From a virus, in the IMG/VR virus record IMGVR_UViG_3300042923_000150, positions 1 to 35,256 of that record: a stretch of 35,256 nucleotides of DNA. One strand, 5' to 3'. The stretch's first letter is position 1. Every line of letters starts with the position of its first letter. A program made the position numbers and the translations under genes. A model generated the notes under the pieces. That model was not told the DNA's origin, did no database searches, and saw nothing but the letters and a program-made list of their open reading frames with translations. Positions 3,046-6,855 of the stretch are shown here, one piece after another.

Positions 3046-3297
3046 TTAGTCGAGCTTGGGAACCGTCCAGAAGAGCTGCACGTGCCCGTCGTCGCGGTGT
3101 GCGATGGTCACATTCTCGTTCTCTGCGATCTCTTCCAGTAAGCGATCCCAGTCTTCTGGCGAGTCGTTCGGGCTTCGTTCAAGGATGGCCGACTTCGATG
3201 CCTGGGCCTTGGGACTGTTAATGCTCCGCTGAATGCGGATACCCAGCAGCTCGTAGGAAGAGGGTTCCTTCGCTGCTTGGGACTTCTGCCTTGCCAT
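3046..3297 (-). CDS. DUF1654-family protein under LexA control
   Basis: This 83-residue protein starts at the ATG at 3297, preceded by GGAGTG; an in-frame ATG four codons earlier is less well placed. The pattern SSYELLGIRIQRSINSPKAQ, SPEDWDRLLEEIAENENVT and HVQLFW fits the DUF1654 family, small proteins found mainly in Pseudomonas chromosomes and prophages, with no known biochemical role. It is monocistronic, bounded by a terminator on one side and a perfect LexA box on the other, so it should be expressed after DNA damage. By analogy with SOS-controlled antirepressors of other temperate phages it may influence induction, but nothing in the sequence proves this. Confidence 0.8.
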   Translation of the reverse strand: MARQKSQAAKEPSSYELLGIRIQRSINSPKAQASKSAILERSPNDSPEDWDRLLEEIAENENVTIAHRDDGHVQLFWTVPKLD

Positions 3298-3305
3298 GAT
3301 GCACT

Positions 3306-3332
3306 CCATTCTACCACTGTATGCTCATACAG
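3306..3332 (-). promoter_or_regulatory. LexA box and promoter of the DUF1654 gene
   Basis: The palindrome CTGTATGCTCATACAG at 3317-3332 is an exact CTGT-N8-ACAG LexA operator with an AT-rich core. On the minus strand TAGAAT (3313-3308) matches the -10 consensus at five of six positions and lies just downstream of the box, so LexA would cover the -35/spacer region. No strong -35 is seen. Confidence 0.75.
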
Positions 3333-3396
3333 TACGGAGGAGGCTGAGTAATGGCAAGGTGGAGGAGTACAAATGTTCTCTTTTGGCGAGCGAGTA

Positions 3397-3421
3397 CAAA
3401 AAAGCCCGCGCTAGGCGGGCT
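3397..3421 (-). terminator. Intrinsic terminator closing the cI operon
   Basis: On the minus strand AGCCCGC (3421-3415), a five-base loop and GCGGGCT (3409-3403) are followed by six Ts (3402-3397). It lies just after the stop of the membrane-protein gene at 3427 and ends the cI transcript. Confidence 0.85.
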
Positions 3422-3426
3422 CTTCG

Positions 3427-4038
3427 CTATGGCGTTGAGATTGACCGTCCAGATTGAGGTTGGCTTCTCCGTATTTCTTCAAGGAGCAACCGATTGGCCT
3501 CGGCCTGCGCTTTTGACTCTTGGATCAGCGCCTCAACCCTCAACTGATTGTTGACCGCATCCTTGCCACCATCAAAAAACGTTTTGCCGCCGCCGAATAT
3601 CGTAGCGTTTGCACCCATAATTCCGAGCACAATGGCCACTCCTATACCTGCCATCCAGTAACGCTGCTCTTTGTTGGCCTGTTTGACGGTGCCAAACTCC
3701 TTTTCGGTTCGCTCTAGTGCGGCCAAGGTGCTAGCCACGGCACGGTCATTGGATTCAATGTGAGCCTTTAGGGTAGCGTTATGCGCCATAGCCTCTCTGC
3801 GCGCTGATCGCTCGCGCAGCCGCATTTCGCGCTGCAGCTCGCCGTTCATGCGATCAATGCGTTTGTCCATCCTATCGTCAATGGCGGATAGAATTACGTC
3901 AATATCGGTGCGGGCGTTATCAGTCATGATGGCAGTATCTACCGGTTTAGCCGTTTCGTCAGTGGTTATCGGCTGACCACCAAAAGGGATGCTGTCCCGG
4001 ATCGGCTTGATATTATCACTCCAGCCATGGTCCTTCAT
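3427..4038 (-). CDS. Coiled-coil membrane protein, second gene of the rexAB-position pair
   Basis: A 203-residue protein with a single predicted transmembrane helix at about 127-148 (YWMAGIGVAIVLGIMGANAT). Long charged helices lie on both sides: residues 45-125, rich in R, E, M and D (DRMDKRIDRMNGELQREMRLRER), and residues 160-192. There is no signal peptide. The ATG at 4038 overlaps the stop of the zinc-ribbon gene (ATGA), with GGAG eight bases upstream. The pair follows cI on the same strand and ends at a terminator, as rexAB does in lambda. An exclusion or anti-phage role is inferred from position and architecture, not from similarity. Base use is less GC-rich than the late genes. An alternative start at codon 38 exists. 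Confidence 0.75.
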   Translation of the reverse strand: MKDHGWSDNIKPIRDSIPFGGQPITTDETAKPVDTAIMTDNARTDIDVILSAIDDRMDKRIDRMNGELQREMRLRERSARREAMAHNATLKAHIESNDRAVASTLAALERTEKEFGTVKQANKEQRYWMAGIGVAIVLGIMGANATIFGGGKTFFDGGKDAVNNQLRVEALIQESKAQAEANRLLLEEIRRSQPQSGRSISTP

Positions 4039-4376
4039 TCGGGAAGCTCCGGGTTAGCCTCGAGCCAGTCCAGTACGCGACGTGCATAAATCGAGCGAAG
4101 TCCGCCGCAATTCCCGCAGCTCATCGAAAAATGAACTCGATAAAACGTAGTTCCTGCGATAGGCATTTTGTAAGCAGTTAGGTACTCAGCGTCTCCTTCA
4201 TTAGAAGACCCTGTGAATAGAGTCCAGTTACCTTCAGTGCCGCAATTCGGGCAGATCATGGACATTTTTACGCCGTCCAGAAACCTTACAAATTGCTCAT
4301 AAGCGACCTGAAATTCGTCCTTTTTAAATGTTACTGATTGCTCGCTCTCTTCCATAACCGACTCTGGGCAATGCAT
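4035..4376 (-). CDS. Zinc-ribbon protein, first gene of the rexAB-position pair
   Basis: A protein of about 113 residues with two CxxC knuckles, CPNC (42-45) and CGNC (87-90), separated by 41 residues. This gives a four-cysteine zinc ribbon around a beta-rich core. The C-terminus (SIYARRVLDWLEANPELPE) is helical. The start is uncertain: ATG at 4376, a TTG at 4385 and an ATG at 4355 are all possible, and none has a good ribosome-binding site. The gene follows cI after a gap of about 56 bases with no visible promoter, so it is probably expressed in the lysogen from PRM. Coupling to the membrane protein suggests a soluble sensor or partner. Similar CxxC...CGNC small proteins occur widely in proteobacteria without a defined role. 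Confidence 0.75.
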   Translation of the reverse strand: MHCPESVMEESEQSVTFKKDEFQVAYEQFVRFLDGVKMSMICPNCGTEGNWTLFTGSSNEGDAEYLTAYKMPIAGTTFYRVHFSMSCGNCGGLRSIYARRVLDWLEANPELPE

Positions 4377-4432: not shown

Positions 4433-5224
4433 TCACAGGTCACCACCGCGCCAGATGACCTGGCCGATGATTCGGTGCTCGTTCACGTCACTGCGCAACA
4501 GCAGCCGATCCGGGTGCTCTTCCTTGTCCTCGTTGTCGCTGCGGATGACCCAGCCGCCCAAGGCGCCCTGAACCAGCCGCTTCACGATCGCGCCCTCTGC
4601 GCTCGCCAGAACAAACACTTGCCTATCTATCGGCTCAACTCGCGATTTATCCACCAGGAGCACGTCCTGATGGCTGATCGTCGGCCACATGCTGTCGCCA
4701 TCCGCGTAGATGACCATCAGGTTTTTTGGATTGGCGCCGCGATACCGCAGCCACTCGCGCTTGAACGCCAGAGTTGATCTGCTCTCGACGTGCGGGTTGT
4801 CATGGCCGAGACCAGCAGCCGCTTTGGCAGTGAGCTGAGGGACAAATGCGTACAGGTGCTCAAGATCGGTCTCATCGCCGTCAGGAAGAGGCGTGTTGGC
4901 CGCCGGGGCATTCTGACCAGCCACCTCTTGAGGCGGCGTGATGATGCCCATTTCTACCATCTGCTTTGCAAGGGTCGGACTGATATCCGATACCGGCACC
5001 TCAAGCAGCTTCGCGAATACAGCCACTGCCTTAAGACTCAGGGCGGTGCGGCGATTCATGAAGTGACTCACGGCACCCTGGGTAACGCCCGCACCAAGGC
5101 CTTCAGCCATTTTATCCTGAGTAAGCTTCAGATCGGCGCGCTTCGCCTGGTAAAGCGCCTTTAGCCGGTCGCTATCAGCAATTTGCCAATCTGTTAACGG
5201 GAGTCTGCGGGAGTCTTTTTTCAT
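4433..5224 (-). CDS. cI: CI-type lysogeny repressor, HTH plus S24 self-cleavage domain
   Basis: A 263-residue repressor. A helix-turn-helix of the HTH_3 type occupies about residues 28-75 (LTQDKMAEGLGAGVTQGAVSHF). A linker follows, then an S24 peptidase domain with the nucleophile Ser178 in DGDSMWP and the general base Lys215 in AIVKRL. The likely cleavage site is Ala137-Gly138 in AKAAAGLG. RecA-stimulated self-cleavage after DNA damage is expected, as in lambda CI and P22 C2. It should bind the five operators at 2948-2989 and 5235-5300. The ATG at 5224 lies only about three bases after the predicted PRM start, so the mRNA is probably leaderless. Confidence 0.95.
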   Translation of the reverse strand: MKKDSRRLPLTDWQIADSDRLKALYQAKRADLKLTQDKMAEGLGAGVTQGAVSHFMNRRTALSLKAVAVFAKLLEVPVSDISPTLAKQMVEMGIITPPQEVAGQNAPAANTPLPDGDETDLEHLYAFVPQLTAKAAAGLGHDNPHVESRSTLAFKREWLRYRGANPKNLMVIYADGDSMWPTISHQDVLLVDKSRVEPIDRQVFVLASAEGAIVKRLVQGALGGWVIRSDNEDKEEHPDRLLLRSDVNEHRIIGQVIWRGGDL

Positions 5225-6067: not shown

Positions 6068-6277
6068 ATGCACAAAACATCTGATCCACACAACACCCAG
6101 CCCGCGCCACAAAACGCGAGCTTAGAAATCGTGGAGCACACGAAATCGTTTCATCAGTCGGCCGCTATGCAAGCCGCCAGAATGATCACCTTTCAGTACA
6201 CCCGCAAAGCCAAGGGCGAGTTCCAGCGCGAGTGCATGGATCACCTCAAGGCCTCACTCGCCGGGGGTGCGGCATGA
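6068..6277 (+). CDS. Small hypothetical early protein
   Basis: A 69-residue protein with a polar, proline- and asparagine-rich N-terminus and a helical C-terminal half (AAMQAARMITFQYTRKAKGEFQRECMDHLKASL). The ATG at 6068 has a GGAG site (acGGAGctg) upstream, and the TGA overlaps the ATG of the GIY-YIG gene. No domain is recognised. Similar short proteins precede replication genes in Pseudomonas phages, but this is recall of context only. Confidence 0.65.
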   Translation: MHKTSDPHNTQPAPQNASLEIVEHTKSFHQSAAMQAARMITFQYTRKAKGEFQRECMDHLKASLAGGAA

Positions 6278-6855
6278 ACTACGGGTTTATCTACTGCCTG
6301 GGTAACGAATGTATGCCGGGCATCTACAAGATCGGCATGACCGACCGCGCCCCGAGTCAGCGTTGTTTCGAGCTGTCTAGTTCGACCAGTGCGCCAAAGC
6401 CTTTTGATCTCCTCTGTTTCGGTGAGGTTCATAACGCATTGTCAGTCGAGCGCGAGCTGCACGATATTTTCGCAGGCGCCCGGCTCAACAAGTCCCGCGA
6501 ATTCTTCAGCGCTGATTACCGCGAGATCCGCGAGGTGTTCAATGCGCTCTCCGATCACCTATGTGAAACACCGGCGGGGAAAGAGCATTCGCACTCTTTG
6601 GAGCTGATGCAGACGTTTTACCTAGCCCAAAGTCAAGACGAGAAGATTAAGGCCTTGCTGAATGCGGCTCAGTTCTCAGGGATCCGCCTCTGGAGCGATC
6701 AGGGCGTGGTTAGGACCTCGGCGCGCCTGGCGTACACACACTGGCTTACCGCCGCCATAAGCGGCATGCGTAACGCCCTGCTTGAAGTTCTTCCGACCAA
6801 GCAACCCGTCAATCACTTGATGGCTCTAGTGTGCGCCATGGAGAAATCAGAATGA
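6274..6855 (+). CDS. GIY-YIG / T5orf172-type nuclease-like protein
   Basis: A 193-residue protein. Residues 1-95 match the T5orf172/MUG113 branch of the GIY-YIG superfamily: YGFIYC as the first strand, GIYKIGMT as the second, the arginine of SQRCFELS and the glutamate of VERELHDIF, ending in REFFSA. These domains cut or bind DNA in free-standing phage proteins. The C-terminal half is helical and unassigned. Start and stop both overlap neighbours by ATGA, and it lies directly before the replication initiator. A role in DNA processing or host DNA attack is possible; sequence specificity cannot be judged. Confidence 0.8.
   Translation: MNYGFIYCLGNECMPGIYKIGMTDRAPSQRCFELSSSTSAPKPFDLLCFGEVHNALSVERELHDIFAGARLNKSREFFSADYREIREVFNALSDHLCETPAGKEHSHSLELMQTFYLAQSQDEKIKALLNAAQFSGIRLWSDQGVVRTSARLAYTHWLTAAISGMRNALLEVLPTKQPVNHLMALVCAMEKSE

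Follow-up and report, generated by a model that had tools for sequence, protein, structure and literature searches.

A 35,256-base viral record (IMGVR_UViG_3300042923_000150), a Pseudomonas prophage referred to here as the window, carries on its minus strand a repressor gene of the cI type followed by two further genes, P1 and P2, and then by a terminator, an arrangement that raises the question of what two proteins encoded at the position of lambda rexAB might do. The features of the region are the following:

4433..5224, minus strand: cI-type repressor with HTH and S24 peptidase domains (PF00717, E = 1.1e-13; HTH_3, E = 3.7e-5; PHROG 4, transcriptional repressor, E = 2.5e-38)
4035..4355, minus strand: P1, predicted zinc-ribbon protein of 106 aa (ATG at 4355; phrog_4293, E = 1.2e-8)
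3427..4038, minus strand: P2, long form of 203 aa, its start overlapping the P1 stop as ATGA
3427..3927, minus strand: P2, predicted short form of 166 aa, from an internal invariant ATG (M38) whose A is the predicted +1
3957..3962, minus strand: putative -35 element of an intragenic promoter (cTGACg in the window; family consensus xTGACA)
3934..3939, minus strand: putative -10 element of this promoter (GATACT in the window; NATACT in the family), 17 bp from the -35 element and 6 bp before the internal ATG
3396..3422, minus strand: intrinsic terminator closing the cI-P1-P2 unit, recognised from the sequence (folding z = -2.3)
3046..3309, minus strand: DUF1654 gene in the flank beyond the terminator, outside the module (PF07867, E = 2.2e-28)

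The cI gene is presumed to be the first gene of a lysogenic operon, at whose end the hairpin AGCCCGC-CTAGC-GCGGGCT is followed by a T run (3421-3398). A consensus terminator scanner run on the window did not list this hairpin, and the terminator scan between cI and P1 gave as its sole match one at the end of cI, at chance level. Transcription of P1 and P2 would occur together with that of cI. A sequence-only reading of this DNA had described P1 and P2 as lying directly after cI on the same strand before a single terminator, as translationally coupled, and as encoding a CxxC...CxxC protein and a one-span membrane protein with long helices. The coordinates agree with the hairpin and T run, the P1 stop and the P2 start share the ATGA overlap, the CxxC pairs of P1 fall at residues 35-38 and 80-83, and P2 combines long helices with a single predicted span at residues 130-148; this two-gene description was therefore correct, although it had missed both the internal promoter-like signal and start within P2 and the swapping of partners that are described below. 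Both genes are real, and the P1-P2 arrangement, found again in dozens of different Pseudomonas prophages, lies far beyond chance. As alternatives to ATG 4355, in-frame starts of P1 are found at ATG 4376, the choice of the earlier reading, and at TTG 4385.

The distribution of the pair was analysed from both genes. A search of 50,697 phage records with the DNA and the window proteins gave no match, a plasmid search gave no match to the pair, and in published phage genomes similar DNA or proteins were absent except for one P. aeruginosa prophage, D14O. IMG/VR yielded 23 loci with a P2 relative, and the P2 profile matched 27 of 398 Pseudomonas genomes, the module being present in roughly 7% of the sampled Pseudomonas species genomes. 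The gene directly upstream of P2 encoded a CxxC...CxxC protein in most loci, with an overlap of 3 to 13 bases. To avoid circularity, P1 was also searched alone, independently of P2, and matched 30 of the 398 genomes; a membrane protein followed P1 immediately in 24 of the 29 P1-side loci analysed and an S24-type repressor directly preceded it in at least 13 of the 29, both counts being lower limits with genomic flanks of about 1.5 kb. Linkage of the two genes in other genomes, on which the sequence-only reading had made its proposal depend, was thus found from either gene. At the higher ranks, the P1 search recovered only the seed genome (G001) among 390 genomes of the order and three further genomes among 369 of the class, in two of which P1 adjoins a small membrane protein. 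The two families, PHROG 4293 (P1) and PHROG 6701 (P2), are not described as a pair.

On the P2 side, 29 of 36 loci lie directly downstream of a cI-type repressor on the same strand. The repressors preceding the module are of at least four types, as judged by their C-terminal sequences, which indicates that the module is not a cofactor of one cI; a role as repressor cofactor was rejected as the main reading on this ground. In P. avellanae (L026:4688-5645), an apparently intact pair with the internal promoter signal is found near an SDR oxidoreductase gene, with no recognisable adjacent repressor. Stand-alone P2 relatives that lack P1 were also observed (L038, L046-L054); two of them (L038 and L051) are located just after a LysR-type gene, and their promoter-like signal is degenerate, mostly AATACC.

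The four cysteines of P1 (C35, C38, C80 and C83) are invariant in 29 sequences and form the two CxxC knuckles of a zinc ribbon, and curated zinc-ribbon models gave weak matches only. P1 is thus a zinc-ribbon-like protein for which zinc binding is predicted. The family phrog_4293, whose function is listed as unknown in PHROG, matches 28 of the 29 members. In the AF2 model (pLDDT 87), a beta core is preceded by two short helices at the N-terminus and followed by one helix at the C-terminus. Because Foldseek returned nothing below 0.001 with this model and the best Z in the fold comparison was 3.0, with zinc-ribbon proteins of RNase P and others and no fold standing out, no function was drawn from the fold. 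Against solved structures, the P1 profile gave weak zinc-ribbon matches alone, and RexA was absent from them. A named family for either P1 or P2 was sought in Pfam, NCBIfam and PADLOC and rejected, these being empty apart from the weak zinc-ribbon matches.

A single span was predicted for the window P2 and for 41 of the 46 loci scored, and no locus had more than one. The AF2 model of P2 (mean pLDDT 77.5, low near the membrane exit) consists of a disordered tail (residues 1-38), a helix that includes the transmembrane span (40-143) and a second helix (155-192), so that the ordered part begins at residue 40, two residues past the Met of the short form. P2 had no curated family match and no predicted enzymatic or channel domain; PHROG 6701, whose function is likewise listed as unknown, matches it weakly, and PF07798 (CCDC90-like coiled-coil membrane) gave matches in 3 of 26 relatives (best E = 5e-4) and none with the window P2. 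Strong constraint acts on the P2 core: seven of nine pairs gave a dN of 0.05-0.16, their dS being saturated or greater than 1. The N-terminal tail is under looser purifying selection, with dN below dS and dN/dS of about 0.14-0.29 where it could be estimated. Since an open frame of 29 to 110 codons precedes the internal Met in all 46 loci and dN is below dS, this tail is a real protein segment.

Comparison among loci revealed that the parts of the pair are exchanged. The P2 cores of L020 and L030 are 99% identical and their P1 proteins 36% identical, and in L044 P1 and the P2 tail resemble those of L017 (75% and 71%), the P2 core being closest to that of L043 (64%). P1 similarity correlated with that of the P2 tail (rho 0.33; 1 of 2000 permutations) and more weakly with that of the P2 core (rho 0.21; 57 of 2000 permutations), a covariation that could partly reflect simple linkage, because the tail sits between P1 and the P2 core. 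In seven loci (L003, L005, L006, L035, L036, L042 and L055) the place of P1 is held by proteins without cysteine pairs, and twelve others (L075-L082, L084-L086 and L089) pair the P1 family with a different membrane protein, of the MEARVxxLE type. At the level of sequence the pair, its linkage and its mosaic structure are established: judged by these comparisons, it is a mosaic of conserved P2 cores and exchangeable P1 partners. Four of the cysteine-free proteins in the place of P1 (L003, L005, L035 and L036) share a pattern that gives the impression of a DUF3467-type protein, with no profile match. In L083 and L088, a P1-type gene is followed by yet another small protein, apparently membrane-spanning.

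The internal Met of P2 (M38 in the window, ATG at 3927) is common to all P2 relatives. When loci were chosen by the protein sequence around this Met, not by DNA, the DNA preceding it followed the pattern xTGACA-N17-NATACT-N6-ATG in 46 distinct loci with few exceptions, and in the 33 prophage-type loci with differing tails information exceeded 1 bit solely at positions -34 to -30 and -11 to -7 of the 45 bases before the ATG. The codon at -36 to -34 stands for 11 amino acids, but its last base is T in 30 of 33 loci (p = 7e-17 against a background of 22%), the Thr at -9 is written ACT in 30 of 30 (background 24%, p = 3e-19), and the codon at -12 is NAT in all 32 NAY codons, across Asp, His, Asn and Tyr (background 52%, p = 6e-10), the three p values ignoring relatedness among loci. 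These codon tests indicate that the constraint at the signal acts on DNA. The exact string TGACA-N18-ATACT was found 49 times in 1.09 Mb (both strands), several of these loci overlapping so that independent cases are fewer, against about one expected, and all occurrences were at this site and in this orientation. A chance origin of the signal was rejected on its positional information and on this excess, and conservation of the promoter-like signal at the DNA level is evident across the loci compared. The window copy (cTGACg-N17-GATACT) agrees with the consensus at 8 of 12 positions and was too weak to be found by a promoter scanner run on the window; it was therefore revealed only by conservation.

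The spacing and position of the signal match those of a sigma-70 promoter with its +1 on the A of the ATG, implying a putatively leaderless mRNA such as is known for lambda cI transcribed from pRM. The literature search yielded no report of an internal promoter or a leaderless mRNA in genes of this kind. Because the tail is real protein and the promoter-like signal is conserved, two forms of P2 would be expected, a long one from the cI transcript and a short, tail-less one from the internal promoter; we infer both promoter activity and leaderless translation of the short form. That TGACA...NATACT is instead a protein-binding or RNA element near the start of the P2 core would fit the -35 element, whose first T is not conserved, and the C at position 5 of the -10 element, but is improbable given the 17-bp spacing and the +1 exactly on the A of the ATG, which are textbook sigma-70 positions, and given that in the second partner family the signal lies upstream of a Shine-Dalgarno leader instead.

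This second family, the MEARVxxLE type (L075-L082, L084-L086, L089 and L090-L098), is unrelated to P2 and has a conserved internal GGAGG and internal start, often together with TGACA-N18-ATACT. In L075, L079, L084, L090 and L096 the signal is located about 30 bases before the GGAGG-preceded internal start, a related signal is present in L080 and L086, and members L076-L078, L082, L089 and L093 are without it. The transcript predicted for these members would begin with a short leader containing a Shine-Dalgarno site. The occurrence of one signal ahead of unrelated proteins with two modes of translation start is hard to explain otherwise than by its being a promoter.

The place of the pair in the prophage was then compared with that of known systems. 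Different cargo occupies the slot that follows cI: the phage D14H, whose downstream flank is about 90% identical to that of D14O, which has the pair (L056), carries BstA there (PADLOC E = 1.9e-118), and other relatives carry ParA-like, DUF1828, DUF3800 or HEPN-like genes. BstA shares with P1 and P2 the slot itself; it differs from them in being a single protein, unrelated in sequence. The BstA gene of the P. aeruginosa phage vB_PaeS-D14H (L059:2591-3490) is annotated merely as a hypothetical protein. The pair resembles lambda RexA/RexB in lying directly downstream of cI, in combining a soluble with a membrane protein and in its expected expression in the lysogen. In lambda, a separate promoter for rexB, pLIT, lies inside rexA, whereas the internal promoter signal of the module is within the membrane gene itself, so that P2 would be truncated; the P1 zinc ribbon has no RexA match, and P2 has one span, RexB having four. 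The same-strand position downstream of cI is thus that of rexAB, and neither a RexA-type DNA-binding protein nor a RexB-type multi-span protein was found. The sequence-only reading had noted a rexAB-like position and soluble-plus-membrane division filled by different proteins, with which the gene order, the single span and the absence of a RexA match accord. On these comparisons the pair is not a RexAB homologue, its soluble part not being RexA-like and its membrane part having one span, and it would work like RexAB if the exclusion inference holds, with the intragenic promoter as its distinctive feature. A second, RexAB-like pair downstream of the module was not evident in the prophages examined.

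A parallel from Pseudomonas is RexABpp (PP_5643/PP_5644), published rexAB-type genes of P. putida prophage P1; the first encodes a RexA-like DNA-binding protein, and the product of the second is predicted to span the membrane four times (PMC12894663). It likewise forms a soluble and membrane pair in the cI operon of a Pseudomonas prophage, but is separated from cI by two further genes. Deletion of these two, PP_3897 and PP_3898, which are set beside P1 and P2 by position, had no phenotypic effect with two groups of phages (PMC12894663). The pairs gp30/gp31 of Butters, gp30/gp31 of Sbash and gp44/gp43 of CarolAnn, called Rex-type in the same source (PMC12894663), are also two-part prophage systems of a soluble and a membrane protein; they differ in belonging to Mycobacterium and Gordonia phages, and are set beside P1 and P2 by description.

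From its position, its architecture and the exchange of its parts, exclusion or abortive infection would be the function of the pair, as the sequence-only reading had proposed. This proposal was partly supported, mainly by position, in a slot that also houses BstA and RexABpp; the match to a defence family is lacking, neither P1 nor P2 having matched PADLOC-DB 2.0.0 at E values up to 1, in line with that reading's remark that no similarity to a known system was visible. An exclusion function is favoured by the position, by the presumed lysogenic expression and by the way in which sensors change while the effector stays constant, and the pair is probably a phage-exclusion device. Its more specific form, to which we give about even credence, is a Rex-like two-part exclusion module in the cI operon that contains a second promoter of its own. 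In it the small zinc-ribbon protein P1 would be the exchangeable sensor or adaptor and P2, a membrane-anchored helical stalk, the conserved effector. The cI transcript would yield P1 and long P2 together by translational coupling, with the disordered N-terminal tail of long P2 as a likely docking site for P1, and the promoter inside P2 would yield tail-less short P2 from a leaderless mRNA, setting the P1 : P2 ratio and supplying P2 subunits that P1 cannot bind. Phage exclusion would then occur through P2 acting on the membrane. Counted against an exclusion module are the absence of a PADLOC match, the single span of P2 with no sign of a channel, the weakness of the window promoter by consensus, the unconserved first T of the -35 element and, as a comparison by position, the dispensability of PP_3897 and PP_3898 (PMC12894663). 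A wider reading, possible and held only tentatively, is that of a modular family in which one stalk effector with exchangeable sensors carries in its own gene the promoter of a sensor-blind leaderless isoform, the long : short ratio tuning the response, and in which a second, unrelated membrane protein with a Shine-Dalgarno start reached the same design.

Other functions were weighed against this exclusion module. P2 might be an entry-type exclusion protein that blocks a receptor or the injection of DNA at the inner membrane, with a purely regulatory role for P1 and no abortive infection; the single-span helical anchor, the lack of a predicted enzymatic or channel domain and the lysogenic expression expected from position would agree with this, but the long predicted cytoplasmic stalk (the topology is itself predicted) and so closely linked a zinc-ribbon partner would point to signalling and not to a passive block, and we regard this entry-type reading as unlikely. 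Two coupled genes, one of them with an additional promoter signal, also recall a toxin-antitoxin-like or reversed-Rex pair, in which one part would be toxic, the other would restrain it, and the internal promoter would ensure an excess of the restraining form. For Butters gp30/gp31, one source describes reversed roles (PMC12894663). The partners of P2 are freely swapped, some for cysteine-free proteins, unlike a tightly matched pair, and stand-alone P2 relatives without P1 exist, which makes a pair of this kind rather unlikely. The module lies nearly always near the immunity region, in a presumed operon with cI, as would suit a regulator of lysogeny or lysis timing (an anti-holin, or a protein that modulates the repressor or tethers it to the membrane) with no part in defence. 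This is decidedly doubtful in view of the four or more repressor types and of the P. avellanae copy, which lies near an SDR gene and not near cI.

If the exclusion reading is true, an undescribed two-part module joins the short list of Rex-type systems, of which there are five so far (PMC12894663), and the dosage of an effector would be set by a promoter buried in the effector's own gene. Such an intragenic promoter would mean that annotation by ORFs only gives an incomplete view of the product, and the swapping of sensors offers a way to ask what part of a phage is recognised by each of the zinc-ribbon proteins. Elsewhere in the window, an open frame at 6232-6855 was recognised by eye as resembling a GIY-YIG/T5orf172-type nuclease domain.
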